64,000 nucleotides of DNA from assembly GCF_000384295.1 (NCBI RefSeq), contig NZ_KB913037.1:10491508-10555507 (forward strand), given 5' to 3'. The DNA is from Amycolatopsis balhimycina FH 1894 (GTDB taxonomy: Bacteria; Actinomycetota; Actinomycetes; Mycobacteriales; Pseudonocardiaceae). The notes below the pieces were generated by a model. It had not been told where the DNA came from. It ran no database searches and worked only from the letters and a program-made list of their open reading frames with translations. Position numbers and translations under genes: made by a program. Positions 5,786 through 21,359 of this stretch are shown here, piece after piece (within the stretch, counting starts at the first letter, position 1; each line of letters starts with the position of its first letter).

Positions 5786-7435
5786 ATGAGTCGCCAGAGT
5801 GTGGCGAAAGCCCACCAGAAGATCCAGGAACTGTCGTGGGAACCGGCGTACCACACCCCGGTTTCGCACTACGGCACCGACTACACCTTCCAGAAGGCCA
5901 AGAAGAAGGACCCGTTGAAGCAGGTCCTCCGCTCGTACTTCCCGATGCAGGAGGAAAAGGACCACCGGGTCTACGGCGCCGAGGACGGCGCGATCCGCGG
6001 CAACATGTTCCGTCAGGTCCAGGAGCGCTGGCTGGAGTGGCAGAAGCTGTTCCTGTCGATCATCCCGCTGCCGGAGATCTCCGCGGCGCGGGCGATGCCG
6101 CTGCTGTTCCGCACGGTCCCGAACCCGGAACTGCACAACGGCCAGGCGATCCAGATGATCGACGAGGTCCGGCACTCGACGATCCAGCAGAACCTCAAGC
6201 GTCTGTACATGCAGAACTACATCGACCCGGCGGGCTTCAACTCGAGCCTGCGCAACTTCCAGAACGACTACTGCGGCACCATCGGCCGCCAGTTCGCGGA
6301 AGGCTTCATCACCGGGGACGCCATCACCGCGGCGAGCATCTACCTCACGATCGTCGCCGAAACGGCGTTCACGAACACGCTGTTCGTCGCCATGCCGGCC
6401 GAAGCCGCCGCGAACGGCGACTACCTGCTGCCGACGGTGTTCCACTCGGTCCAGTCCGACGAATCCCGCCACATCAGCAACGGCTACGCGACGCTGCTGA
6501 TGGCGTTGTCCGACGAAAGCAACCACCAGCTGCTCGAACGCGACCTGCGCTACGCGTGGTGGAACAACCACGCCGTCGTCGACGCGGCGATCGGCACGTT
6601 CATCGAGTACGGCACCAAGGACCGCCGCAAGGACCGCGAAAGCTACGCGGAAATGTGGCGCCGCTGGATCTATGACGACTACTACCGCTCGTACCTGGTC
6701 CCGCTCGAGAAGTACGGGCTCGTCATCCCGCACGACCTCATCGAAGAAGCCTGGAACCGGATCTGGAACAAGGGCTACGTCCACGAAGTCGCGCAGTTCT
6801 TCGCCACCGGGTGGCTCGCCAACTACTGGCGCATCGACCCGATGACGGACAAGGACTTCGAGTGGTTCGAGTACAAGTACCCGGGCTGGTACGACAAGTA
6901 CGGCAAGTGGTGGGAGAACTACAACCGCCTCGCGACGCCGAACGGGCACCACCCGATCGTCGCCGAGGACGTCGGCTACGTGTACCCGCACCGCTGCTGG
7001 ACCTGCATGGTGCCGTGCCTCATCCGCGAGGACATGGTGGTCGACGAGGTCGACGGCCAGCACCGGACGTACTGCTCGGAGACCTGCCGCTGGACCGACG
7101 CCGAGGCGTTCCGGCCCACCTACCAGGGCCGCAACACGCCGAACATGGGCCAGCTGGTCGGCGCCCGCGAGTGGGAGACGCTCTACCACGGCTGGAACTG
7201 GGCCGACGTCGTCTCCGACATGGGCTTCGTCCGCGACGACGGCAAGACCATGGTCGCCCAGCCGCACCTGGACCTCGACCCGAAGAAGATGTGGACGCTC
7301 GACCACCTGCGCCGGATGCCCGAGGTGCAGTCGCCGAACGTGCTGCTCAACCAGATGACCGCCGAGCAGCGCGCCGCGTTCGTGGCCGACTACAACCGCC
7401 AGGGCCCGGCCGGGCGCCCGGCGCCGCAGGCCTGA
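5786..7435 (+). CDS. prmA: Propane 2-monooxygenase hydroxylase, large subunit
   Basis: A 549-residue soluble diiron monooxygenase alpha subunit (PrmA/MimA type). It carries the two carboxylate-histidine metal motifs of the family, [12 protein letters not shown] and [13 protein letters not shown], plus an earlier helix glutamate in the [17 protein letters not shown] region. Length is normal. The subunit holds the non-haem diiron centre that hydroxylates propane to 2-propanol; related enzymes also attack ketones and phenols. A C-terminal Cys-containing stretch ([15 protein letters not shown]) is present. Start ATG 5786 follows AAGGAG. It is the first gene of the monooxygenase operon and is followed by two tandem palindromes before prmB. 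Confidence 0.95.
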
Positions 7436-7446
7436 CACGACGGGAA

Positions 7447-7505
7447 GGGCGGCACTTTCACGTGAAAGTGCCGCCCCCAGGTGGGCACTTTCACGTGAAA
7501 GTGCC
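7447..7505. repeat. Two tandem perfect palindromes inside the prm operon
   Basis: Two copies of a perfect palindrome with core CACTTTCACGTGAAAGTG lie at 7447-7476 (30 bp in full) and 7484-7505 (22 bp), offset by 33 bases. They occupy the gap between the prmA stop and the prmB start. As RNA, each arm could fold on itself or pair with the other copy, giving partial termination or an mRNA-processing site. They belong to the same palindrome class seen at 1551, 3457 and 62022. Confidence 0.8.
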
Positions 7506-7518
7506 GGATTGGGGCGGG

Positions 7519-8547
7519 ATGGCGGAGAAGCACCGCGTCCGGTTCGAGCCGGTCGGGATCGAGATCGACGTCGCCGAGGACCAGACGATCCTGCGCGCCG
7601 CCGCCGAGCAGGGCGTCATGCTCATGCACGGCTGCAAGGAAGGGCAGTGCGCGGCCTGCAAGTCGTTCCTCCTCGACGGCGACGACGTCGAACACGACCG
7701 GTATTCGACCTTCGCGCTCCCCGACTACGAAAAGGAGGAAGGCTTCACGCTGCTGTGCCGGGCCCACGCCTACGAAGACCTGACGATCGAGCTGCTCAAC
7801 TACGACGAGGAGATGATCCAGTCCGGCCTGCCGATCCAGGAGGCCACGGTCGAGGTCGTCGCCAACGACCCCGTCACCCACGACCTGCGGCACCTGGTGG
7901 TCCGACTGGACGGCGACCTCAAGTTCTTCCCCGGCCAGTATCTGGACTTCGCCGTCCCGGGCACCGAGGAGACGCGGTCGTTCTCCATGGCCAACACCTC
8001 GGCGCGTGACGGGCTCTTGGAGTTCGTCATCAAGATCTACCCCGACGGGTTGTTCTCCCGGTTCCTGGCCGCCGAAGTCGCGGTCGGCGACCGGCTCCGG
8101 GTGACCGGCCCGTTCGGGGTGTTCACCCTCCGGGACAACCCGAACGCGGACCTCGTCTTCGTCGGCGGCGGGGCCGGGATGGCGCCGATCCTGTCCCTGC
8201 TGCGGTCCATGGCCGAGCGCGGCCTCGACCGGACGGCGACCTTCTACTACGGCGCCCGCCGCCGGCGCGACCTCTGCTTCGAGGCGGAACTGCGGGAGCT
8301 GGAGGCGAAACTACCCGGCTTCCGTTACGTACCAGCACTTTCCGAGCCGGGCGACGACGACTGGACCGGCGAAACCGGCTTCGTCACCGACGTCCTGCGC
8401 CGGGCCGGCGCCGACCTCACCGGAGCCGACGCCTACGTCTGCGGGCCGCCGCCGATGGTCGAGGCCGCGCTGGAACTGCTGCCCGCGCTCGGCGTCGACG
8501 GCAAGCGCGTCTTCTACGACAAGTTCACCACCACGGGCGAAGGGTAA
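7519..8547 (+). CDS. prmB: Propane monooxygenase reductase
   Basis: A 342-residue electron-transfer subunit. The N-terminal plant-type 2Fe-2S ferredoxin domain has the cysteine pattern HGCKEGQCAACKS, with a fourth Cys in TLLCRAHAYED. This is followed by an FAD-binding domain (ETRSFSMANTS, the RxYS-like motif) and an NAD-binding domain (VFVGGGAGMAPILSLLR and YVCGPPPMVEAA). It passes electrons from NADH to the diiron hydroxylase. The frame is open far upstream, inside prmA, but ATG 7519 with GGGG four bases before it gives the normal family length. It lies directly after the double palindrome. Confidence 0.93.
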   Translation: MAEKHRVRFEPVGIEIDVAEDQTILRAAAEQGVMLMHGCKEGQCAACKSFLLDGDDVEHDRYSTFALPDYEKEEGFTLLCRAHAYEDLTIELLNYDEEMIQSGLPIQEATVEVVANDPVTHDLRHLVVRLDGDLKFFPGQYLDFAVPGTEETRSFSMANTSARDGLLEFVIKIYPDGLFSRFLAAEVAVGDRLRVTGPFGVFTLRDNPNADLVFVGGGAGMAPILSLLRSMAERGLDRTATFYYGARRRRDLCFEAELRELEAKLPGFRYVPALSEPGDDDWTGETGFVTDVLRRAGADLTGADAYVCGPPPMVEAALELLPALGVDGKRVFYDKFTTTGEG

Positions 8548-8554
8548 GGAACCC

Positions 8555-9724
8555 ATGACAGCCACCCAAGAACGCAGCGTGCCCAAGCCGGCGTTCACCG
8601 ACGCCGAAGCGGGCGCGAAGGTCTTCCCCGACTCCGATGCCCGGCAGTTCAACTACTTCACCGCCGCCAAGCGCAAGCAGAGCCACTACGAGGACGTCAC
8701 CGTCGAGGTCCAGCCCGACCCGCGGCACTACCTGTCCCAGGGCTGGCTCTACGCCTTCGCCGACGGCAAGGCCGGGTACCCGCTGGAATGGACCGCGCTG
8801 AAGGCGTGGGGCTCGGACCGGCCGGTGCCCGAGCGCGGCCCGGGGTCCGGCGGCAAGGGCTACGACTGGCCGGCCCTGGGCTGGCACGAGTTCCGCGACC
8901 CCAACGAGGAGTGGGAGCTCACCCTCTACCGCTACAACGCGAACGTCGTGCGCCAGCTGAACCAGAACGTCGACGCCGCCCGCCAGGCCAAGGCGTTCGA
9001 GCAGTGGAACCGCAACTGGGTCGACTTCGTCGCCAAGCACGTCGGCGCCTGGATGCACGTCGACCACGGCCTCGGCCTGTACCTGTTCGCCAACGCCAAC
9101 CGCCGCGCCCCGACGAACATGCACAACAACGCGATCTCGGTGAACAGCATGCATCGCATCCGCGCGGCGCAGGACCTGGCGCTGTACAACCTGACGCTGA
9201 CCGAGGAGATCGAGGGCTTCGACGGCGCGGCCCACCTGGCCACCTGGAACGAGGACCCGGCCTGGCAGGGCGTGCGCGAGACCGCCGAGCAGCTGACCGG
9301 GATCTGGGACTGGGGCGAGGCGATCTTCGCCGCCAACGTCGTCTTCGAGCCCCTCGTCGGCGAGCTGTTCCGCAGCAACCTCGTCCAGCAGGCCGCGCCC
9401 GCCAACGGCGACTTCGTCACCCCGACGTTGATCGGGGCCGAGGAGTTCGACTTCTCCGAACGCGACCTCCGCTACACGAAACCGCTGTTCCACCTGCTGA
9501 TCAACGACAAGGAGTTCGCCGACCACAACAAGGCGCTGCTGCAGAAGTGGCTCGAGGACTGGGTGCCGCGCTGCATCGCCGCCGCCCGCGTGCTGCAGCC
9601 GCTGTGGTCGCAGCCCGACGCCAAGCCGATCCGGTTCGAGGACGGTCTCGACCGCGTGAAGAGCCGGTTCGCCGGCATCCTGTCCGAATTGGGCCTCAAG
9701 GCACCCGAGGAGCTGGGCCAGTGA
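8555..9724 (+). CDS. prmC: Propane monooxygenase hydroxylase, small subunit
   Basis: A 389-residue beta subunit of the soluble diiron monooxygenase family. It has the ferritin-like fold without the metal ligands of the alpha subunit. Typical stretches are FNYFTAAKRKQSHYEDVTVE near the N terminus, WNRNWVDFVAKHVGAWMHVD and NNAISVNSMHRIRAAQDLAL. It forms the (alpha-beta)2 hydroxylase with PrmA. The start ATG 8555 is seven bases after prmB and preceded by AAGGAA. Its stop overlaps the GTG of prmD (GTGA), indicating coupled translation. Confidence 0.93.
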   Translation: MTATQERSVPKPAFTDAEAGAKVFPDSDARQFNYFTAAKRKQSHYEDVTVEVQPDPRHYLSQGWLYAFADGKAGYPLEWTALKAWGSDRPVPERGPGSGGKGYDWPALGWHEFRDPNEEWELTLYRYNANVVRQLNQNVDAARQAKAFEQWNRNWVDFVAKHVGAWMHVDHGLGLYLFANANRRAPTNMHNNAISVNSMHRIRAAQDLALYNLTLTEEIEGFDGAAHLATWNEDPAWQGVRETAEQLTGIWDWGEAIFAANVVFEPLVGELFRSNLVQQAAPANGDFVTPTLIGAEEFDFSERDLRYTKPLFHLLINDKEFADHNKALLQKWLEDWVPRCIAAARVLQPLWSQPDAKPIRFEDGLDRVKSRFAGILSELGLKAPEELGQ

Positions 9725-10092
9725 CCATCTTCAAAACCGCGGAAAGCCCGTTCAAGGCCGACAACACCGCATCGAACATGTGCGGTTTCACCCTGATGAA
9801 CAACCAGGTCGGCGCGATCATCGCCGAAGTCATGGCCACCAAGGACAACGTGACCGTGACGCCCTTGCCGTCGATGATCCGCGTCGACGCGCGGGGCCGG
9901 ACGGACCTGGTCTACGCCGAAGTCGACGAGGCCGCCGGTGAGGAAGAGGGCTGGTTCAACGCGGCCGAGTTCGAGGAGAGCATGTCCACCCACTACGGGC
10001 GGATGATCCACGAGGACGACCGCACGATCATGTTCGCCAACCCCGAGGACGCGGCGGAATACCTCGATTTCGACCTCAAGCCCATTCGCTAG
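9721..10092 (+). CDS. prmD: Propane monooxygenase coupling protein
   Basis: A 123-residue effector/coupling subunit of the MmoB/DmpM type, without cofactor. The family core is visible in NMCGFTLMNNQVGAIIAEVM and VTVTPLPSMIRVDA. It binds the hydroxylase and tunes substrate access and electron transfer. The GTG start at 9721 overlaps the prmC stop. The gene ends before two strong hairpins, so transcription of the downstream accessory genes may be reduced relative to prmABCD. Confidence 0.92.
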   Translation: MTIFKTAESPFKADNTASNMCGFTLMNNQVGAIIAEVMATKDNVTVTPLPSMIRVDARGRTDLVYAEVDEAAGEEEGWFNAAEFEESMSTHYGRMIHEDDRTIMFANPEDAAEYLDFDLKPIR

Positions 10093-10108
10093 ACAACCAA
10101 TTTCTTTC

Positions 10109-10153
10109 GGGGGCTCCGGGTGGCGGAGCCCCCGGCCCGGGGCGAAGCCCCGG
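10109..10153 (+). terminator. Tandem hairpins between prmD and the accessory genes
   Basis: The first stem is a perfect 10-bp GGGGGCTCCG arm pair with a 5-base loop (10109-10133). The second is a perfect 7-bp CCGGGGC pair with a GAA loop (10137-10153). Neither has a T-tract. The position after prmABCD suggests a partial terminator or a 3'-end stabiliser that separates hydroxylase genes from accessory genes. Confidence 0.6.
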
Positions 10154-10192
10154 AACAACACAGCACTCGATCCGGCTCAGGAGGATCAACGA

Positions 10193-11230
10193 ATGTACGA
10201 AAAAGACGGCGAGAAATACTTCGTGGTGGACGCCCACACCCACTTCTGGGACGCGAGCCCGGAGAACTGGGTGGAAGGGCAGGAGGAATACGCCAAGGGC
10301 TGGATCGAGTGCTTCCACGCCTACCAGGGGCTCGGCCCGAAGGAGACGCACTGGCCGATCGACCGGTTCCAGAAGTACTCCGAGGAGCTGATGATGCACG
10401 ACCTCTTCGAGGTCGGGCACGTCGACAAGGCCATCTTCCAGCCGACCAACCTGCGGCAGTGGTACAAGACGGGCTTCAACACCACCGAGAACGACGGCGC
10501 GCTGGCCGAGAAGCACCCCGACAAGTTCCTCGTGAACACCACCTTCGACCCGCGGGAAGGCGACGCGGGGATGAAGGCGTTCGAGGAGCGCGTGAAGCGG
10601 TACGACTGCAAGGGCGTCAAGCTCTACACCGCCGAGTGGCGGGGCGGCTCCCGCGGCTGGAGCCTCAAGGACCCCGCCGCGGCTCGCTACCTCGAGAAGT
10701 GCGAGGAACTCGGCGTCACCAACGTCCACATCCACAAGGGACCGACGATCTGGCCGCTGGACAAGGACGCCTTCGACGTGTCCGATGTGGACCAGGTCGC
10801 GACGAGCTTCCAGGGCCTGAACTTCATCGTCGAGCACGTCGGCCTGCCGCGCATCGAGGACTTCTGCTTCATGGCCACCCAGGAGCGGAACGTCTACGCG
10901 GGGCTCGCCGTCGTCGTCGGCGGCCTGATGCACGCCCGCCCGAAGTTCTTCGCGAAGGTCATGGGCGAGCTGATGTTCTGGCTCGGCGAGGACAAGCTGA
11001 TCTTCGGCGCGGACTACGCCATCTGGGAACCGAAGTGGCAGGTCGAGGGCTTCGTGGACTGGAACATGCCGGCCGACGACGAGCTGTCGGACTTCGCGCC
11101 GCTGACCGTCGACCAGAAGAAAAAGATCCTCGGGCTGAACGCCGCCCGCCTCTACGGCATCGACGTCCCCGAGGAGCTGCGGCTCCCGGACCCGAAGACC
11201 GTCGAGCCCGTCGGCGTGCCGAACTCATGA
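10193..11230 (+). CDS. Amidohydrolase-2 family protein of the prm operon
   Basis: A 345-residue TIM-barrel metal-dependent hydrolase or decarboxylase. Metal-binding histidines are visible in VVDAHTHFWDASPENW (HxH), NVHIHKGP and IVEHVGLPRIEDF, with an aspartate in LIFGADYAIWEP. Amidohydrolase-2 proteins cleave or decarboxylate small acids and lactones; the substrate here is unknown. Homologous genes sit in the same place in mycobacterial mim clusters. It starts at ATG 10193 after AGGAGG and overlaps the next gene by ATGA. Confidence 0.85.
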   Translation: MYEKDGEKYFVVDAHTHFWDASPENWVEGQEEYAKGWIECFHAYQGLGPKETHWPIDRFQKYSEELMMHDLFEVGHVDKAIFQPTNLRQWYKTGFNTTENDGALAEKHPDKFLVNTTFDPREGDAGMKAFEERVKRYDCKGVKLYTAEWRGGSRGWSLKDPAAARYLEKCEELGVTNVHIHKGPTIWPLDKDAFDVSDVDQVATSFQGLNFIVEHVGLPRIEDFCFMATQERNVYAGLAVVVGGLMHARPKFFAKVMGELMFWLGEDKLIFGADYAIWEPKWQVEGFVDWNMPADDELSDFAPLTVDQKKKILGLNAARLYGIDVPEELRLPDPKTVEPVGVPNS

Positions 11231-11918
11231 CCACGCTGGTGACCGGGGCCCGCGCCGCCGTGTGGGCGGCGCTGGGCACCGTCCGGGATCCCGAACTGGA
11301 CGAACCCCTCACCGACCTCGGGTTCGTGGCCCGCTGCGAGGTGAGCGACGAGGGCCACGCCGTCGTCCGGCTGCGGCTGCCGACGTACTTCTGCGCGCCC
11401 AACTTCGCGTTCCTGATGGTGGCCGACGCCTACGATGCCGTGGCCGGCGTGCCGGGCCTGACCGGGCTCGACATCCGCCTCGACGACCACTTCGCGTCCG
11501 ACGTCATCAACCGCGGGGTGGCGGCCCGGCAGGGGTTCGTGGCGTCGTTCGAGGGCGAGGCCGTCGACGAGCTGGACACCCTGCGGTACGACTTCGTCCG
11601 CAAGGCCGTGCTGGCGGGCACCGACCGCGTCTGCCGGTCCCTGGGCCGAGACCCGCAATCGCTGACCCTCGGCGACGTCCCGCCGAGCCCCGACTTGGCC
11701 CGGCTCCGGACCCGCCGCCGCGAGCTGGGCCTTCCCGCCGAAGACGGCGACCCGCTGCTGCTCGACCCGGCCACCGGGCGAGCTGTGTCCGCGGCCGACG
11801 CGAAGCGGCACCTCGCCTTCGCGCGGCTGACCCGTACGAGCATGGAGGCCAACTCGGGCGTCTGCCGCGGCATGCTGCGTGCGCGGTACGCCCTGACCAG
11901 CGAAGAGGAGGGCACGGG

Positions 11919-11922
<4 letters not shown>
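11227..11922 (+). CDS. DUF59/MIP18-like iron-sulphur or metal-assembly protein
   Basis: A 231-residue cytosolic protein. The N-terminal half is a DUF59 (MIP18/SufT-like) domain with the signature GTVRDPELDEPLTDLGFV and a central YFCAPNFAFLM; the C-terminal half is helical and charged. DUF59 proteins help assemble or insert Fe-S clusters, and a role in maturing the monooxygenase reductase or the diiron site is plausible from context, not proven. The ATG at 11227 overlaps the preceding stop, and its own stop overlaps the ADH start, so all three genes are translationally coupled. Confidence 0.8.
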
Positions 11923-14646
<2,724 letters not shown>

Positions 14647-14716: not shown

Positions 14717-14750
14717 TTCCCGCGCCCCGCGGCAGCGGCCGCACTGGAGT

Positions 14751-16268
14751 TCACCCCCGGCCGGACACCACCAAAGAATCCAGGCGTGCCGCGTACATGA
14801 CATAGGGATCGAGGTACCAGCTGGTGTCGATCCGGACGGCGGCCGAGCGGTGCCGCAGCATTTTCAGCGCTGCACCCACGTCGAAGGGGACGAGACGGCC
14901 CAAATCGATCAGCTCGGGCGCGGAAAACGTCGTGGTTTGCAGCTCATTCGCCTTCGACAGGAAGGTCCGCTCAGCTGACGTCATCCGGTCGAGGACGCCG
15001 TGTGCCGGCGCGAAGATCGCGCCGCCGACCGTTCCGGTGGGGTCGAGATCGTCCGCGAAAGCCCGGTAAGACAGCAGCCCGTGCCGATCGCGAAGGTGGT
15101 CACCGACGGTGACCAGTGCGGCCGCATTGTGCCCCAGTCGTTCAGCCAGCTGGTCGCGTGCAGCGCGATCTTGGTCGTCGTCCGGCAAGCGGTAGGCGTC
15201 CAGCAGCGTCGCGGCGTCGCGTGACGGCAACGGACCGACGCGCACGACCGGCAGACAGTCGCGGAAGATGTCGTCTTCGCAGACGAGGATCGTCCGGACT
15301 GCGCTGTCAGTGGGAAGCGGAAGGGTCTCGAGCAGCTCAGGTCCTACGCCGGCGGGGATGTCGTCGACGATGAGCAAGCTCGCACCGTCCGAGCGTCCGT
15401 CGCTCCTTGCCGGTTGCTCCCCGCCGGTGCCCGGCAGCGTGGCCTCGTACCGGAGCCTCAGAGATTCAGGATCGGCCGACGAGCCTTTGAGGCTCACCCA
15501 CCGCACGCCGCCGGGGAACGCTCCGGCGAACCGCCAGGCGTACGTGGTGGCCAATGCCGTCTTGCCGGCGCCCGGCAGTCCCGACACGGCGACGAACGAA
15601 CCGCATGCGGATTCGTCGATCAACGGGTAATCGGCGGCGTGCAAAGCAGTGTGGAGATCCCAGAGTTCACGGTACCGCCCGACGAAGTTCCGCACGATGC
15701 CTGCCCGGGATGCGGGCCAACGCGGGGGAGCGGCCGGGAGAACAGTTCCGATGGGAGTGGTGAGCGCCGCGGCCCGCTTGGCGATGAGGCCCGCGGTGGA
15801 GGCCGTACCGGCGTCGGGTACCGCGAACTTGGCGTCGGCCAGTTGGATCGGGCGTAGGTGGCCGGTTCCCGGCTCGGGGTTGATCACCATGATCCGGCCG
15901 CACGGATCGCCTTCACGCTCACCGGCGAGGAACACCATCAAGAGCTCATGCTGGCACGCAGCTCGCTCCGCGTAATCCGTCGAGAAGTAGGCGACGAGTG
16001 TCTTCGACTCGCTCAACGCCGTCCGGATACTCTTGGTGATCCCGGAGTAGCACTCGATGCTCTCGTCGACGAAGACGCGCGCTCCGAGCGTGCGAAGCTC
16101 GTTGGCGAGTTGTCGTCCCGCTTCCCGGTCTGGCCCGGAGAAGGACAAGAAGACATCGTATTTCGCGTCCAGCAAGTCGTTTGGTCCTCTCGGGTGTTGA
16201 CGACTTGCGCGCACGTCGCCACGGGTAGCGGCCGAAGGCCTGGGTCCCCCATTTGTACCAGCGCTCAC
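14751..16268 (-). CDS. TIR-domain STAND NTPase
   Basis: A 505-residue protein. Residues about 36-150 form a TIR domain: YDVFLSFSGPDREAGRQLAN, then ARVFVDESI, and the alpha-C helix ACQHELLMVF, whose glutamate (E108) matches the NADase catalytic position. An NB-ARC-like P-loop NTPase follows, with FVGRYREL, Walker A SGLPGAGKTAL (about 229-239) and Walker B SLLIVDD (about 297-303). A helical C-terminal part without obvious repeats completes the protein. Bacterial TIR-STAND proteins are typically NAD-depleting defence effectors. It is divergent from a second STAND gene with a shared palindrome between them. The GTG at 16268 has no ribosome site, so it may be leaderless; a TTG near codon 32 is an alternative. 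Base composition is visibly less GC-biased than the neighbours. Confidence 0.82.
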   Translation of the reverse strand: MSAGTNGGPRPSAATRGDVRASRQHPRGPNDLLDAKYDVFLSFSGPDREAGRQLANELRTLGARVFVDESIECYSGITKSIRTALSESKTLVAYFSTDYAERAACQHELLMVFLAGEREGDPCGRIMVINPEPGTGHLRPIQLADAKFAVPDAGTASTAGLIAKRAAALTTPIGTVLPAAPPRWPASRAGIVRNFVGRYRELWDLHTALHAADYPLIDESACGSFVAVSGLPGAGKTALATTYAWRFAGAFPGGVRWVSLKGSSADPESLRLRYEATLPGTGGEQPARSDGRSDGASLLIVDDIPAGVGPELLETLPLPTDSAVRTILVCEDDIFRDCLPVVRVGPLPSRDAATLLDAYRLPDDDQDRAARDQLAERLGHNAAALVTVGDHLRDRHGLLSYRAFADDLDPTGTVGGAIFAPAHGVLDRMTSAERTFLSKANELQTTTFSAPELIDLGRLVPFDVGAALKMLRHRSAAVRIDTSWYLDPYVMYAARLDSLVVSGRG

Positions 16269-16279
16269 ACTGCGTGGCA

Positions 16280-16310
16280 GCGTTACATCGTTCCCTTTAT
16301 CTTGTAACGC
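16280..16310. promoter_or_regulatory. Perfect inverted repeat between the two STAND genes
   Basis: GCGTTACA and TGTAACGC are separated by 15 bases in the divergent intergenic region (16269-16400). It would overlap the promoter of the TIR gene. The HTH domain of the facing fusion protein is one candidate binder. Confidence 0.5.
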
Positions 16311-16400
16311 CGGTGGGCTGCGCCCGTGACTTCACGCTCAGTGGCTGTGCCGGATGATGGGGTAGCGGTTGCCAGACCGTGGCGGGCCGGAGGAGGCGAC

Positions 16401-19400
16401 GTGGACGAAGACTGGAAGCCCTTCGGCCGGAGGGTGCGCGAACTCCGGATGGCCGCCGGCCTGTCCACCAGGGCGCTCGGCGACCTGATCCACTACAGCA
16501 AGGCGCAGGTCAGCCGGGTTGAGCAGGGGCATTCTCCACCGACGACGAACTTCGCGGCCGCGTGTGACCGCGTCTTCGGCACCGGGGGTGAGCTGGCGAG
16601 GGCAGCCGCGAAGCGCGCGGTCGGTGACCGGCGGATGGCCGCCGAACCCGCGTTCGACCTGCCTGCCGGTCCGAACAGGTTGATCGGACGGGCCGCGGAG
16701 GTCGAAGCTTTGCAAGACCACTTGGCGGATGCCGGCCACCGCCCCGGCGGCCGCGTGTGCGTGTTGCACGGCTTGCCCGGTGTCGGCAAGACGGCGATCG
16801 CCTTGCGTGTCGCTGAGCTGTTCCACGCCGAGTACCCCGACGGTCGCCTCTACCTCGACATGCAGGGGTACAACCCGGACAGTCAGCACGTGTCGGAAGA
16901 AGAGGCACTCGATCGTGTGTTGCGACGCCTGGGAGTTCCCGGCGAGCTGGTTCCGAGGAACACCGACGACCGCGGCGCGTTGCTTCGTCAGAAATTGGCC
17001 GGCCGACGCGTCCTGCTGATTCTCGACAGTGTGAAGAACGCGCAGGAGATCGGCCGCCTGCTGCCCCCGAACGGGCGGTCAGCGGTGATCATCACGAGCC
17101 GCCGGCCGCTGACTTCGCTAGCGGCCACTCTCGTCAGGCAAGTCGCGACGCTCGCCCCTGGCGAATCGGCTGACCTGTTCCGCGCTGTTGCGGGGCTGCG
17201 GCCTGGTTCGGACGAACGAGGTGATCCGGCGGTGATCGAAGAAATCACCCGAATGTGTTACCACCTTCCCCTTGCGCTTTGTATCGTCGCCTCGCGATTC
17301 CGCGACAACCCCGTGCGCCGCCTCGAAGACGTCGCCGCTCGCCTGGCCGACGAGGCCGTGCGTCCCCGCGAATTCGACGACGGCGTGCGGAGCATGACCG
17401 CGGTCTTCGCCGCAGCCTGCGCGACTTTGTCCGACCCTCAACAGACGATGCTCGCGCTCACCGCTTTGCATCCGGGCCCGAGGATCGACCCGTATGCGGC
17501 GGGAGCTCTCGCGGGACTCGCCCCCGACGCGGCGGAGTACCTGCTCGACGAGCTCATCCGGTCCGGAATGCTGGAGCGGCATTCGCACAACGCGTACCGC
17601 TTGCACGACATGCTGCGGGACCACTTGCGTCGTCCGGGGATCGGCATCCTGTCCGAGGGGGAGGCTGTCGCGGGCCGCCGCCGGCTGTTCGACTATTTCC
17701 TGCACACGACCGCCGCCGCGAACAGCAGTGGCAACGAACACCGCTACCGGATCCCGGTCGAGCCGCCGTCGGCACCGGTGACGAGCCCGGCGTTCGCGGA
17801 CGCGGAAGCGGGGAAGAAGTGGATGGACCTCGAGGTCGACAACTTCCTTCCGCTGGTGCAAGAGATGGCCGCCCAGGGAAACGACGCCGAATGCTGGCAG
17901 TTCGTCCACAACCTGCGGGAGTACTTCTACGCGACCAAGCAGTGGGAGCTCATGGTCGCTTGTTTCAAGCAGGCGGTCGAGCCCGCGAGGCGCACTGGTG
18001 ATCACCGGGCATTGGGCGTCACGCTCAACGGCCTGGGTCTGGCGCTCGGCCAGCTCGGCGAGCCGGACGAGGCGATGCGCCTCTACTCGCGCGCAAGGGC
18101 CGAGTTCGTCACCGCCGAGGACCCCTACGGCGAGATGAACGTGGTGGCGAACCATGCTTGGCTCGCCTACGAGAACGGGGATCGCGAAGTCGCACTGGGA
18201 CACGCGAAAACAACCTGGCAGTTCTACGAGAGAGAGCACCAGCGGTTCAACGCGGCCATCGCGCTGGACCTCATCGCGCGATGTCAGCTGGGGCTCGGTC
18301 TGCTGGAGGAGGCCGAAACCCATTTCCGGCGGGCCCTCGTCGAGTTCGGCGAGCTGGGATTCCGGGATGGCGACGTCGCACAGCTGCTGTCCCACCTCGG
18401 TGAAACGGAGCTGCGTCTCGACCGGACCACAGCAGCCGGGGACCACTACCGGGAGGCCGTGGAGCGGGCTCGCGCCGGCGGAGCCACGAGGGAAGAAGCA
18501 GTGGCGTTCGAGGGCCTCAGCCGGGTGGCTGCCGCGTCCGGTGACGTGGTGGAGGCGGCCGCGCACCGCGCGGCAGCGACCGCTTTGTACGAAGAAGTCG
18601 GTGCTACGGCCGACATCACGCGGCTCCGAGAAGAATCGTCGACGCACCACGCCGTGGCGGAGTCGCCGACGGCGCGCGTCAGCGCAACGGAGACCGCGTC
18701 AAGGCCGGCCGAGCCAGGATGCGGTGAGGTGGCGACGCAGGCCCGCGTTTTGGTGCGCCGGCGGCTGCGGGTGCTCGCCGTGAACACGGAATGGACGTCG
18801 CTGAACGGCGGGCTGAGCACGTTCAACCGAGAGCTGTGCAAGGCCCTGGCGGCACAAGACGCCGAGGTCTATTGCTCGACGCCGTTCGCTTCCGAGGAGG
18901 AGCGACGTGACGCCGGCGAGATGGGCGTCGCCTTGGTTCACCCGCCACCGGCTCTCAACGCGCCCGAGACAGCGCTTTCCCGGCCTCCACGCTTGCCGGA
19001 GGGCATCGTCCCGGACGTGGTGATCGGTCATGGCCGCAAGACGGGTGAGCCGGCTATGTGGCTGGTCGACGACCACTTCCGCGACGCCAAGCTGGTGCAC
19101 TTCTGCCACGTGATTTCCGATCGTGTCGAACTCGAAAAGGTGTACGACTCCGATGAGGATCCAGTCCTCGAAGCCGACAGGCGCTATGAGGAGGAGTTCA
19201 CCATCGCCGCCCGCGCGGACCTCGCGATAGGTGTCGGGCCGGTGTTGCACCACTACCTGCGCGATCGGCTCCACGGCACCCCGGGAAGGCCCCCGATCCG
19301 GTTTGATCCGGGGTTCGACGCGGCGGACGTGCTCGCCGGACTGCCCCCGGTCAGCGACACCGTTCGAGTGCTCATGGTGGGCAGGCTCTCTCGTCGTGAG

Positions 19401-19979
19401 GCGCAGGTGAAAGGCATCGACCTGCTGGCCCGGGCACTCGGGCACGCTCTCAAACAGCGAGGCCCGGGTGACCCTGAAGTAGAACTCGTACTTCGTGGCG
19501 TCGAGGCCAAGGAAGGGAAGCCGTTGGCCGACGAGGTCCGGGCTTGGGCGGGGATGCCTTCGTTGCGTGTTGTCCCTCGTCCATATTCGCCCAAGGCCGC
19601 TACTTTGGCCCAGGACTTGCACCAGGCGAGTGTCGTGGTGATGCCCTCTCGCACCGAAGGCTTCGGCCTGGTGGGGCTGGAGGCGATCACCGCGGGGGTG
19701 CCGACCTTGGTGAGCAGACGCAGCGGCTTGGGCGCGTTGCTCGAGGAAGAGCGTGCGGACCTGTCGGTCGAACTGAACCGAGTGCTTCCCGTGACAGACG
19801 ACGAAGGAGTGGATGCCCTGCGCTGGGGCGACGCGCTGGCCGCCGTGCTGAACCATCCTAAGCCCGCCTTCTTCGCCGCGAGGCAGCTTCGCGACGAGCT
19901 TTCGGCGAAACGAACCTGGGCGATGTCCGCCAAGAAGCTGATCGAGTCGGTGCACGCGTTGACCCGCGCCAACGCGTAG
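16401..19979 (+). CDS. HTH-NB-ARC-TPR-GT4 glycosyltransferase fusion protein
   Basis: A 1192-residue multidomain protein. Residues about 8-60 are a Xre-type HTH (GLSTRALGDLIHYSKAQVSR). Residues about 92-350 are an NB-ARC ATPase with NRLIGRAAEVEAL, Walker A HGLPGVGKTAI (123-133) and Walker B VLLILDS. A helical arm with LHDMLRDHLRRP follows. Residues about 530-735 form TPR-like repeats (TLNGLGLALGQLGEPDEAMR, IARCQLGLGLLEEAETHFRR). Residues about 785-1190 are a GT-B family-4 glycosyltransferase: NGGLSTFNRELCKALA at the N lobe, VLMVGRLSRREAQVKG, and the retaining EX7E motif EGFGLVGLE. HTH-NB-ARC-TPR proteins are common actinobacterial regulators; a C-terminal glycosyltransferase is unusual and suggests an effector. 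GTG 16401 follows GGAGGAGG. Substrate and partner are unknown. Confidence 0.85.
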   Translation: MDEDWKPFGRRVRELRMAAGLSTRALGDLIHYSKAQVSRVEQGHSPPTTNFAAACDRVFGTGGELARAAAKRAVGDRRMAAEPAFDLPAGPNRLIGRAAEVEALQDHLADAGHRPGGRVCVLHGLPGVGKTAIALRVAELFHAEYPDGRLYLDMQGYNPDSQHVSEEEALDRVLRRLGVPGELVPRNTDDRGALLRQKLAGRRVLLILDSVKNAQEIGRLLPPNGRSAVIITSRRPLTSLAATLVRQVATLAPGESADLFRAVAGLRPGSDERGDPAVIEEITRMCYHLPLALCIVASRFRDNPVRRLEDVAARLADEAVRPREFDDGVRSMTAVFAAACATLSDPQQTMLALTALHPGPRIDPYAAGALAGLAPDAAEYLLDELIRSGMLERHSHNAYRLHDMLRDHLRRPGIGILSEGEAVAGRRRLFDYFLHTTAAANSSGNEHRYRIPVEPPSAPVTSPAFADAEAGKKWMDLEVDNFLPLVQEMAAQGNDAECWQFVHNLREYFYATKQWELMVACFKQAVEPARRTGDHRALGVTLNGLGLALGQLGEPDEAMRLYSRARAEFVTAEDPYGEMNVVANHAWLAYENGDREVALGHAKTTWQFYEREHQRFNAAIALDLIARCQLGLGLLEEAETHFRRALVEFGELGFRDGDVAQLLSHLGETELRLDRTTAAGDHYREAVERARAGGATREEAVAFEGLSRVAAASGDVVEAAAHRAAATALYEEVGATADITRLREESSTHHAVAESPTARVSATETASRPAEPGCGEVATQARVLVRRRLRVLAVNTEWTSLNGGLSTFNRELCKALAAQDAEVYCSTPFASEEERRDAGEMGVALVHPPPALNAPETALSRPPRLPEGIVPDVVIGHGRKTGEPAMWLVDDHFRDAKLVHFCHVISDRVELEKVYDSDEDPVLEADRRYEEEFTIAARADLAIGVGPVLHHYLRDRLHGTPGRPPIRFDPGFDAADVLAGLPPVSDTVRVLMVGRLSRREAQVKGIDLLARALGHALKQRGPGDPEVELVLRGVEAKEGKPLADEVRAWAGMPSLRVVPRPYSPKAATLAQDLHQASVVVMPSRTEGFGLVGLEAITAGVPTLVSRRSGLGALLEEERADLSVELNRVLPVTDDEGVDALRWGDALAAVLNHPKPAFFAARQLRDELSAKRTWAMSAKKLIESVHALTRANA

Positions 19980-19988
19980 CAGCGCTGT

Positions 19989-20588
19989 TCAGCGTATGAG
20001 GCCGTGCCGGGACAGCTCGTGCCCGGCCAGCTTCTCGATGACGTCCCGGTCCCGCTCCCGCCAGCCGGTGGCCGCCGCGTCCACGGAAGCCAGGCGCCGC
20101 AGCGGCTGCGTGGCCAGGGCCCGCAGCGCGAGCAGGTCCAGCCCTTCGTCGCCGAGGGTCCGCAGGTGCGCGGCCGCGGTCGCGCGGCGGGTGAAGTGCC
20201 AGCGCAGTGGCAACCACGTCACCACGAGCGTCAGCACCGGCAGCGCGATGATGATGGCCGCCATCCACCAGGCCAGGTTCTCCACCGCCTCGATCTGCCA
20301 GTGGCCTGCGTCGGCGAACTTGTTCCCGACGGCGGAACCGCCGTGCAGGGCCTTGGCGAGCGCGTTCCCGACGAACGGGATCCCGCCGGCCGTGTTCGCC
20401 GCCGAATCGAACGTGCCCCGCAGCCCGGTCCCGGCGTCGACGAGCCCGTCCCCGGGCGCGCGCAGCTTCATCACCTGGTCATACACCGACGTCCCCAGCC
20501 ACACCGCCAGGACGACGAGCAACAGGGCGAGCAGGTCGCTGACGAGCTGGGCGGTGCGGCGGATCGGCCGTTCGGCGTAGAGCTGCAT
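19989..20588 (-). CDS. Two-TM membrane protein of unknown function
   Basis: A 199-residue protein with one hydrophobic segment near the N terminus (LVSDLLALLLVVLAVWLGTS, about 14-35) and a second near the middle (WMAAIIIALPVLTLVVTWLP, about 113-132). The intervening loop is rich in Gly/Ala (TAGGIPFVGNALAKALHGG). The C-terminal tail is charged and cytosolic. It has no recognised domain. The ATG at 20588 has AAAGG about eight bases upstream. It is convergent with the GT4 fusion gene (only nine bases apart) and divergent from the GNAT gene; a TetR-type operator in the shared upstream region could also affect it. Confidence 0.7.
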   Translation of the reverse strand: MQLYAERPIRRTAQLVSDLLALLLVVLAVWLGTSVYDQVMKLRAPGDGLVDAGTGLRGTFDSAANTAGGIPFVGNALAKALHGGSAVGNKFADAGHWQIEAVENLAWWMAAIIIALPVLTLVVTWLPLRWHFTRRATAAAHLRTLGDEGLDLLALRALATQPLRRLASVDAAATGWRERDRDVIEKLAGHELSRHGLIR

Positions 20589-20666
20589 CGGGGCGCCTTT
20601 CGCGGTGGGGGAGCGCGGCCACGGCAACGTACCCGGCACCCCGCCGGGCGAACCGCCACGGTGGTC

Positions 20667-20682
20667 TATGACGGCGGTCATA
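20667..20682. promoter_or_regulatory. TetR-type operator 1 (TATGAC-N4-GTCATA)
   Basis: A perfect 16-bp dyad, extended to 18 by one further C/G pair. It lies 35 bases before the GNAT start and 79 bases before the divergent membrane-protein start. The same motif occurs at 20717-20732 and 21185-21200. Confidence 0.65.
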
Positions 20683-20716
20683 GTGTGGCCGGCGCCGCAG
20701 TGTGTTCTCATGGGAC

Positions 20717-20732
20717 TATGACCATCGTCATA
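20717..20732. promoter_or_regulatory. TetR-type operator 2 overlapping the GNAT start codon
   Basis: TATGAC-CATC-GTCATA, centred exactly 50 bases from operator 1. Its ATG is the GNAT initiation codon, so repressor bound here would block initiation directly. Confidence 0.6.
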
Positions 20733-21359
20733 AGGGTCGCCGACCGCGAGTGTGTCGCCACCCTCGTCGCGGCTTGCTCGCCGGACAGTCTCCGGCGCCG
20801 GTTCATGATGGGCGGCCCGGCCCGGCCCACCGAGGTTTTCGACCGCTACCAGCGGTTCCTGCTCGCCGGCCCGCCGGCCGGTGTCGCGTTGCTGGCCTTT
20901 TCCGGCGGCACTCCGGTGGGCCTGCTCAACTTCGTCGCGGAGACGCCGGGCGAGGCCGAGGTCGGGGTCCTGGTCGCCGACGCGTGGCAGCGGCAGGGGA
21001 TCGGCAGCGCGCTGAGCCGGTGGCTGTGGGCGTCCGGGCGCTGGCCGGGCTGGACCGTGCGGGCCACTGTCCAGGCCGGGAACGCCGGAGCCGAGGCGCT
21101 GCTGCTGGGCCAGGGCTTCCGGCCGGTACCGGCGTACGAGCGCGGCGAACGCGACTTCGCGCTCGTCGTGCCGGACTGGGCTACCATGACGGACGTCATG
21201 AAGGAGGCGGTCGATGACCAGGACACCGCGCGAGCGGATGGTGCTCAGTGCCGCGCAGCTGGTGCGGATCCACGGTGTCGGGGCGACCGGCATGCGGGAC
21301 GTGGTCGCCCACGCCGAAGCGCCGCGGGGGTCGCTGCAACACTACTTTCCGGGCGGTAA
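20718..21359 (+). CDS. GNAT-family acetyltransferase
   Basis: A 213-residue protein whose first 155 residues are a GNAT domain: CSPDSLRRRFMMGGP, GGTPVGLLNFVAE, the acetyl-CoA-binding VLVADAWQRQGIGSALSRWL (R/QxxGxG/A motif) and a last strand GFRPVPAYERGERDFALVV. The substrate is unknown. The frame has no stop after the domain and runs 146 bases into the tetR gene in a different frame, giving a non-domain Arg-rich tail. This long overlap is unusual and could reflect loss of the original stop. The start codon lies inside an operator-like dyad and has no ribosome site, so a leaderless transcript is possible. Confidence 0.7.
   Translation: MTIVIRVADRECVATLVAACSPDSLRRRFMMGGPARPTEVFDRYQRFLLAGPPAGVALLAFSGGTPVGLLNFVAETPGEAEVGVLVADAWQRQGIGSALSRWLWASGRWPGWTVRATVQAGNAGAEALLLGQGFRPVPAYERGERDFALVVPDWATMTDVMKEAVDDQDTARADGAQCRAAGADPRCRGDRHAGRGRPRRSAAGVAATLLSGR
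21185..21200. promoter_or_regulatory. TetR-type operator 3 (CATGAC-N4-GTCATG)
   Basis: A third copy of the ATGAC-N4-GTCAT dyad, 14 bases upstream of the tetR start and immediately before its ribosome site. It may allow separate autoregulation of tetR. Confidence 0.55.

Follow-up and report, generated by a model that had tools for sequence, protein, structure and literature searches.

Closest described systems and the locus

STAND proteins fused to a GT4-type glycosyltransferase (GT4-conflict), some with an N-terminal TIR or caspase domain, are already in print, and GT4-conflict is described as a predicted counter-invader effector domain that is often C-terminal and is carried by AP-ATPase-type and other STANDs (PMC8195603). 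The same source describes nSTAND2, a mobile two-gene system in which both proteins are STANDs and one is commonly fused to GT4 or HEPN (its Fig. 6C). TIR-AP-ATPases are described in the actinobacterial FxSxx peptide and VMAP systems (PMC7159879), and plants possess head-to-head NLR pairs, for example RRS1/RPS4, with a shared promoter and an integrated domain in the sensor (PMC9528088). Here we report on a pair of facing STAND genes, one with a TIR domain and the other with a GT4-conflict domain, in a 64,000-nucleotide stretch of Amycolatopsis balhimycina FH 1894 (contig NZ_KB913037.1, positions 10,491,508 to 10,555,507; hereafter, the window), situated, as numbered, close to one end of a single-contig genome of 10.86 Mb.

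Both open reading frames (ORFs) were found at the coordinates given in an earlier note on this DNA, which had been made from the letters of the sequence: the TIR-NB-ARC gene and the GT4 gene are divergent and face each other across 132 bases. The longest frame of the GT4 gene opens further upstream. Since GTG 16401 is preceded by GGAGGAGG and agrees with the starts of the orthologs, the 1192-residue reading with its 132-base gap, which was also that of the earlier note, is likelier. The features of the locus are as follows.

14718..19988, no strand: insert, approximate extent as judged against empty sites, running from the base of the groEL-like gene's terminator hairpin to the right-hand membrane-protein gene
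14751..16268, minus strand: TIR-NB-ARC (short STAND) gene; 505 amino acids in the longest ORF, though translation may begin some codons further in
15069..15686, minus strand: NB-ARC-type NTPase, residues 195-400; Walker A GLPGAGKT at 15558-15581; Walker B DD302-303
15819..16163, minus strand: TIR domain, residues 36-150; TIR_2, 50.3 bits (cut-off 28); Glu108 at 15945-15947
16281..16309, no strand: conserved intergenic element with inverted repeat, present in 6/6 pair loci; candidate operator or bidirectional promoter
16401..19979, plus strand: XRE-HTH/NB-ARC/TPR/GT4-conflict gene; 1192 amino acids (longest ORF from 16326, 1217 amino acids)
16422..16604, plus strand: XRE-type helix-turn-helix (HTH); HTH_31, 53.2 bits; recognition-helix region HYSKxQxSRVE kept in 6/6
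16695..17363, plus strand: NB-ARC domain, 49.8 bits; Walker A GLPGVGKT at 16770-16793; LHD-type motif downstream at 17601-17609
17802..18659, plus strand: TPR superhelix, candidate sensor; TPR_12, 60.3 bits
18774..19940, plus strand: GT4-conflict glycosyltransferase domain; PF20706, 412.5-415.6 bits over all 385 positions; EX7E at 19656-19682

We propose, with a probability of roughly 0.55, that the pair acts as one functional unit: a horizontally moving two-STAND immune module in which the GT4 protein would serve as sensor and regulator and the TIR protein as executor.

Relative to the STAND-GT4 fusions of PMC8195603, TIR and GT4 are here split over two STANDs encoded by facing genes, the GT4 protein bears an N-terminal XRE HTH, and a conserved intergenic element is specific to the pair. 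Like the nSTAND2 system of that source, the window pair is a mobile two-gene unit in which both proteins are STANDs. Unlike nSTAND2, its NTPases are NB-ARC and a sub-threshold AAA_16 by Pfam, with no nSTAND model listed; neither is eroded, the Walker A lysine and Walker B aspartates being kept in both; its genes are divergent instead of forming an operon; and the partner carries a TIR domain. The resemblance to RRS1/RPS4 (PMC9528088) consists of two NB-ARC receptors placed head-to-head around a shared promoter region and inherited together, with an extra C-terminal domain on one partner and TIR in the pair. The plant pair is listed as TNL-ID/TNL, whereas the window pair is bacterial, has TIR on one partner only, has TPR in place of LRR, and carries an extra domain that looks catalytically intact. 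No leucine-rich repeats were found, the TPRs being in the GT4 protein and no repeats being recognized in the TIR protein. This is a likeness of organization and not of demonstrated descent. As in the FxSxx and VMAP systems (PMC7159879), the pair includes an actinobacterial TIR-AP-ATPase protein, but pair loci of different context share no third gene.

The earlier note did not recognize the pairing as described. That can hold only for this combination; its components do not share in the novelty, as STAND-GT4 fusions, TIR-STAND proteins and a mobile two-gene STAND/STAND system with GT4 are in print (PMC8195603). A report of this bacterial pair was not found, judged on titles and abstract openings with supplements outside the scope, and the literature searched yielded no paper with an experiment on a STAND-GT4 protein; the section of PMC8195603 on these proteins gives predictions. 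Several assignments to known systems were rejected. With the FxSxx-COOH TPR protein model NF040586, whose cut-off is 300 bits, the scores were 39.1 and 71.1. For Thoeris, the ThsB model scored 18 bits, and the sole gene common to the pair loci besides TIR is the STAND-GT4 gene. For the CATRA/caspase ternary system, there is no third shared gene and no CHAT or CATRA among the ten window neighbours.

The two genes co-occur

We searched 80 genomes of the genus, scoring the best candidates in each (up to 19 for the TIR protein and 8 for the GT4 protein). Matches to the TIR protein above 390 bits occurred in 5 genomes (G000, G028, G004, G002 and G076), the next match being 227 bits; matches to the GT4 protein above 1500 bits occurred in the same 5, the next being 385 bits. 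None of the 80 held a strong full-length match to one gene without the other, and the genes were adjacent and divergent in all 5 (the one TGA flagged in the G004 match lies upstream of the start; the ORF begins after it and runs to the contig end). The probability of an identical 5 of 80 arising by chance is ~4e-8 by simple arithmetic that assumes independent genomes, an assumption that does not hold, as the window and G028 share a site, and so do G002 and G076. The co-occurrence that the earlier note had asked after was thus found, in 5/5 pair genomes versus 0/75 others of the genus, plus Saccharothrix.

The Saccharothrix pair came from a scan of named genomes, which returned three relatives of the TIR protein. 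Saccharothrix sp. NRRL B-16348 and A. anabasis (the same as G004) carry the pair, and Actinomadura latina carries a long TIR-STAND beside an HTH-STAND-TPR gene without GT4. Searching 397 genomes of the order with the TIR protein gave 8 genomes at E 1e-40; the best 3 candidates per genome were scored, so misses are possible. In total the pair is present in six genomes and four flanking contexts. The six orthologous pairs are 43-90% identical to one another, and all have the C-terminal GT4 and the head-to-head arrangement with a shared intergenic region (6/6). Maximum likelihood trees of the two proteins (midpoint root) have the same topology, with Saccharothrix placed within the Amycolatopsis set; in the TIR tree one node is supported at 93/95 and the other inner branches are starred. 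No third gene is conserved across pair loci of different context.

Insertion site, exchange and constraint

An ortholog of the groEL-like gene to the left of the pair was found at at least 80% identity in 36 genomes of the genus, as read from the table. The right-hand gene lies within 400 bases of it in 23 of these (at 72-88 bases in 11 and 295-391 bases in 12), is 5.3 kb away with the pair in between in the window and G028, and is absent from this position at E 1e-60 in 11. Among the 23 sites lacking the pair, 5 were read base by base and 18 by coordinates; 4 of the former have 69-76 bases with a terminator hairpin, and the fifth, G024, has 304. Because the full-length genes co-occur at a site that is empty in most relatives, the pair is an accessory module, transferred as the earlier note had supposed, and not part of the core genome. 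No integrase gene or target repeat was seen at the insert. At the G024 site (L142, G024:C1:1466000-1471000), a small membrane-type ORF of ~80 codons, by eye, stands in place of the pair. Given this ORF and the gaps of 295-391 bases in 12 relatives versus 72-88 in 11, repeated insertions at the groEL-side site are possible.

Directly to the left is a monooxygenase/chaperonin gene cluster, and the earlier statement that there is no metabolic context needs correcting, although the pair is an insert beside that cluster. Membership of the pair in the cluster was rejected, as relatives keep the groEL-like and right-hand genes together without it. The note had also described a lower GC bias than that of the neighbours. 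In G+C at third codon positions (GC3), the TIR and GT4 genes have 0.78 and 0.81 versus 0.91-0.98 for five neighbours (groEL, hydroxylase, amidohydrolase, GST and YceI), in agreement with this; equally low values occur elsewhere in the window, however (TetR, 0.78; three untrimmed ORFs, 0.74-0.85).

Apart from G028, which shares its site, the window has no gene near the pair in common with other pair loci. Matches above 80 bits between the window and G002/G076 are limited to ORFs at a distance of about 9 kb or more (30-44% identity), and Saccharothrix and G004 share one 49% match several kb from the pair. Between the window and G028, the synonymous substitution rate (dS) is 0.80 for the TIR gene and 0.92 for the GT4 gene, compared with 0.10-0.62 for six flanking genes. 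Between G002 and G076 the values are 0.59 and 0.53, compared with 0.09-0.26 for seven flanking genes, a set in which ORF 15724 has a nonsynonymous rate (dN) exceeding dS and is probably in the wrong frame. The dN/dS ratios of the TIR and GT4 genes are 0.35 and 0.18 (window/G028) and 0.31 and 0.10 (G002/G076). Both genes are constrained and older than their surroundings, as would be expected if flanking recombination exchanged the cassette as a whole, the divergent alleles moving together. Rapid evolution under positive selection was rejected: dS is raised too, and dN/dS ratios of 0.10-0.35 fit an exchange of old alleles.

A conserved element between the genes

An alignment of the intergenic regions (five rows, G076 being omitted as a near-copy of G002) is poorly conserved but for one block, in which 12 of 20 columns are invariant, the mean being 20%. 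The window copy contains the inverted repeat GCGTTACA-N15-TGTAACGC; at the other pair loci the arms are imperfect. The block follows the pattern CGTTMCATYGTTYCC-N10-12-AACG. Its first half was found in 17/143 loci, every one of which covers the pair. At whole-genome scale, each of the 5 pair genomes has a single copy of the full pattern, compared with 0/5 genomes chosen from the 75 without the pair, and a reversed pattern used as control was found in 0/10. As the pattern was derived from pair loci, its presence there is by construction, and the result is that each pair genome has just one copy and the other genomes have none. Combined with a recognition helix that is invariant, the element suggests dedicated autoregulation; a bidirectional promoter is an equally open reading. 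Unequal arm spacing and imperfect arms argue against one rigid dimer site, making a rigid palindromic operator doubtful.

Domain composition of the two proteins

The TIR protein carries the catalytic glutamate of TIR NADases (nicotinamide adenine dinucleotide-cleaving enzymes). E108 aligned with E100 of plant RUN1, the residue mutated to Ala in the solved structure 7s2z, and Glu108, the Walker A GxPGxGK and DD302-303 are invariant in 6/6 orthologs. These results support the NADase-type glutamate and intact Walker A named in the earlier note; NADase activity itself is predicted. The Pfam match of the NTPase is a sub-threshold AAA_16, with no nSTAND model among the matches, and the ~100 residues that follow it form a predicted winged helix. 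The Pfam scan recognized no repeats in this protein. Among five long TIR relatives scanned, four (L085, L137, L078 and L083) have TPR matches above the Pfam cut-off and one (L091) has a sub-threshold match (22.7 vs 30.1). Since the TIR protein is without the TPR matches found in four of its five long relatives, sensing may fall to the GT4 partner.

For the GT4 protein, Pfam matches and 6/6 invariance likewise bear out the HTH-NB-ARC-TPR architecture and the C-terminal GT4 domain with an intact EX7E motif. All six orthologs share an invariant Walker A GVGKT (including K155), D234 and the HD of the LHD motif. Equally invariant are R1020 and K1029, which are donor-site basic residues, and the two glutamates of EX7E, E1111 and E1119 (longest-ORF numbering). 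The GT4-conflict domain aligned with MshA, including VGRL..KG and EX7E, and its PF20706 match stands apart from ordinary GT4 enzymes (412.5-415.6 bits vs 75 for the next best in the genome). The PF20706 cut-off of 26 bits is itself weak: 20/21 PF20706 matches in the window genome reach it, as do matches in 14/14 control genomes. Ordinary GT4 enzymes pass this cut-off, and annotation by cut-off alone therefore overcounts.

Structure models of both proteins (AlphaFold, 4-row alignments) have a mean predicted local distance difference test (pLDDT) score of 55. The top Foldseek matches of the low-confidence TIR protein model are to the tetramer core of the plant TIR-NLR RPP1, over the full length of the TIR protein (E 1.8e-9; template modelling (TM) score 0.23). 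In the 1192-residue model, the TPR region comprises 16 successive helices with pLDDT about 70-90 across residues 521-720. Foldseek matches of this model include OGT, SPINDLY (TPR followed by GT-B), the STAND-TPR protein 6mfv and MshA, with TM by query of 0.1-0.2. These matches suggest that the TPRs could present protein to the glycosyltransferase. Like O-GlcNAc transferase (OGT) and SPINDLY, the GT4 protein has a TPR superhelix followed by a GT-B enzyme; unlike them, its enzyme is a GT4 placed behind an NB-ARC switch. OGT and SPINDLY belong to the sequence family GT41.

The wider TIR-STAND/HTH-STAND family

At E 1e-20, TIR-STAND matches were present in 33/80 genomes of the genus. An HTH-STAND match lies within 10 kb in 23 of these (the 5 pair genomes and 18 others) and in none of the remaining 10, although the surroundings in G035, G011 and G005 end early at contig ends. 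A TIR-STAND tree of 40 rows (midpoint root) is divided by a branch with 99/100 support. On one side of it 28/30 rows are linked to an HTH-STAND-TPR-type gene, the unlinked rows inside this clade being G061 and G135; on the other side the count is 0/10. L083 and L098 were chosen partly because they are linked, and without them the count is 26/28; in some linked genes, for example that of L083, the HTH was not recognized. Because linked and unlinked rows are interspersed in the HTH-STAND tree, which is labelled by genome, the TIR partner appears more closely tied to the HTH-STAND than the HTH-STAND is to it. The wider clade suggests that STAND pairing is common among actinomycetes. In each of the two trees the six GT4 pairs group as a single clade, near which the HTH-STAND tree carries a warning of long branches. 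Judging by these relationships, the GT4 tail and the short TIR partner are probably derived, the TIR protein having lost repeats and the HTH-STAND having gained GT4.

The GT4 domain was found at E 1e-40 in 4/397 order genomes and 9/394 class genomes, window genome included (best 4 candidates per genome scored). Apart from the window's own, all of these matches are at most 45% identical, so there is no close relative among them. Further GT4-conflict loci display other combinations; 13 were fetched and six characterized. At L130, GT4 is fused to CATRA and adjoins a CHAT protein and a STAND-TPR, and at L135 and L136, GT4 has CHAT and STAND-TPR neighbours. Fusions of bDLD3-TPR-GT4 (1329 amino acids) and AAA-GT4 (1188 amino acids) occur at L124:6621-10610 and L127:7097-10663, respectively, while at L126, GT4 stands alone beside TIR-NB-ARC-TPR and CHAT. 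At L083 (G065:C36:15000-34999), a locus that came from the search of the genus, an unfused GT4 gene and a STAND-TPR gene are head-to-head; a TIR-STAND-TPR gene is their near neighbour, and another STAND lies on the other side. These are the parts of the cassette, unfused.

Proposed sensor and executor roles, and competing explanations

We infer each biochemical step that follows, as well as the sensor and executor roles, the anti-invader purpose and the order of gains and losses. Both proteins would be made from the shared divergent promoter region. At rest, the HTH of the GT4 protein would hold the intergenic element and keep expression low. Binding of an invader protein by the TPR superhelix would switch the NB-ARC domain, release the GT4 protein from DNA and induce the pair. 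The GT4 domain would then glycosylate the bound invader protein or the partner, with the TPRs feeding the enzyme as in O-GlcNAc transferase and SPINDLY. The activated sensor would nucleate the short TIR-NB-ARC protein, whose TIR domains would assemble and cleave NAD+, so that the infected cell is stopped. The GT4 domain itself is a member of GT4-conflict, and the module would work as an immune unit organized like a plant NLR pair; anti-phage activity, and defence as its function, are predicted. More tentatively, we suggest that the pair is a bacterial sensor/executor NLR pair that reached the plant design independently, in which an integrated, working, TPR-fed glycosyltransferase tags invader or partner as the trigger, GT4 having been gained and repeats lost within an old actinobacterial TIR-STAND/HTH-STAND-TPR partnership.

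Several observations weigh against the sensor/executor module. The pair is rare (5/80 genomes of the genus), and no close copy was found in viral-contig, plasmid or phage searches (queries varied by collection). The TIR protein had two matches to plasmids, at 34% identity, and none to phages; for the GT4 protein there was no match in viral contigs, and its GT4 domain had only six plasmid matches, at 32-33% identity. Neither protein matched a known defence family at strength, the best PADLOC scores being 29 bits (TIR protein) and 21 bits (GT4 protein). Shortness is not confined to the cassette, one of the other linked TIR-STANDs having 497 amino acids (G040). The arms of the element vary in spacing (15 in the window and, by eye, mostly 17 at the other loci) and in sequence, worst in G004, and the models are weak, with RPP1 and OGT/SPINDLY matches at TM about 0.1-0.25 informing on fold order and not on arrangement. 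Nor was the defence island that the earlier note had asked about shown: 0/10 window neighbours are defence genes by Pfam scan, and at the remaining pair loci the comparison of flanks covered shared genes only.

The earlier note had seen two effectors of different chemistry, a hypothesis under which each STAND senses for itself, and NAD+ cleavage and glycosylation of host or invader molecules proceed in parallel under one regulator with no hierarchy. That Walker residues in both NTPases and catalytic residues in both end-domains are kept in 6/6 orthologs agrees with this, as does the description of GT4-conflict as a predicted effector domain (PMC8195603). Nevertheless, we regard parallel effectors as unlikely, and as less likely than a sensor with its executor, given that in the TIR protein neither a repeat nor another sensor was recognized, unlike in most of the long relatives scanned, whereas its partner carries TPRs, and that 0/80 genomes have a strong match to one full-length gene alone. 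A regulator of secondary metabolism or development, in which the HTH-NB-ARC-TPR protein is an AfsR-like transcription factor tuned by its partner and its GT4 domain, is less probable again. Its NB-ARC-TPR core does align with AfsR (8k60, 8jke), scoring 154 bits to 8k60 and 212 bits to the AfsR model. However, membership in AfsR or HaaT was rejected, as the scores are far under the curated cut-offs (211.6 bits against 1430 for AfsR; cut-off 1125 for HaaT). The GT4 protein also differs from AfsR in its N-terminal XRE-type HTH, GT4 tail and TIR partner; the N-terminal part of AfsR is a SARP. Moreover, the candidate element has one exact match per pair genome, and the cassette is sporadic and swapped, not a core gene.

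The same sensor/executor mechanism could instead serve self/non-self (mycelial) recognition or the exclusion of plasmids and conjugation in place of phage defence. The hosts of the pair are filamentous bacteria, and divergent alleles at one site amid far more similar flanks recall an incompatibility locus, yet 23/25 genomes with both flanks have no allele at the site, and we rate this purpose as slightly more improbable than an AfsR-like role. An association of unrelated genes by chance is scarcely credible. Related domains do occur separately in the genus, but the pair recurs in several flanking contexts and in Saccharothrix, has its own element and yields congruent trees, and the existence of six orthologous pairs, with dN/dS of about 0.10-0.35 in the two comparisons made, indicates that it is not fortuitous.

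Some soil actinomycetes carry this pair as a movable cassette. With only two genes in 5.3 kb, an intergenic region of its own, and a putative sensor split from a putative executor, it is open to direct tests. Such tests could show whether bacterial NLR-like proteins pair as sensor and helper as those of plants do, what the targets of a conflict glycosyltransferase are, and whether evolution produced this design on two occasions.

Additional genes at the wider loci and in the window

Recurrent extra genes are present at several of the wider loci (L091-L096 and L138; L085-L088). One encodes a protein of ~330 amino acids that starts like ELKxLRKGRG, the L091 copy of which is without a Pfam match. 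Another encodes a SEFIR-NPCBM protein (L096), with a similar ORF in L091. At L085 and L088, the space between the two STANDs holds TerD (Pfam assignment for L088) and a gene that by eye resembles TerC. The recurrent extra genes look like parts of a larger, uncharacterized system. L152 (G135:C10:16000-35999) contains a tandem of four TIR-STAND-matching ORFs of 410, 1042, 969 and 370 amino acids, the last cut by the end of the stretch.

In the window, positions 6811-14646 hold a binuclear-iron monooxygenase-type cluster (reductase, hydroxylase, amidohydrolase and alcohol dehydrogenase) whose last gene encodes the groEL-like chaperonin; we take it to resemble the mim/prm operons of propane monooxygenases with MimG. 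To the right of the pair, the minus-strand ORF of 434 amino acids at 19989-21293 is probably over-long and two things in one. Its conserved part is the C-terminal ~200 residues, a membrane protein that matches as a unit, and its N-terminal part is found separately, several kb off in some relatives.

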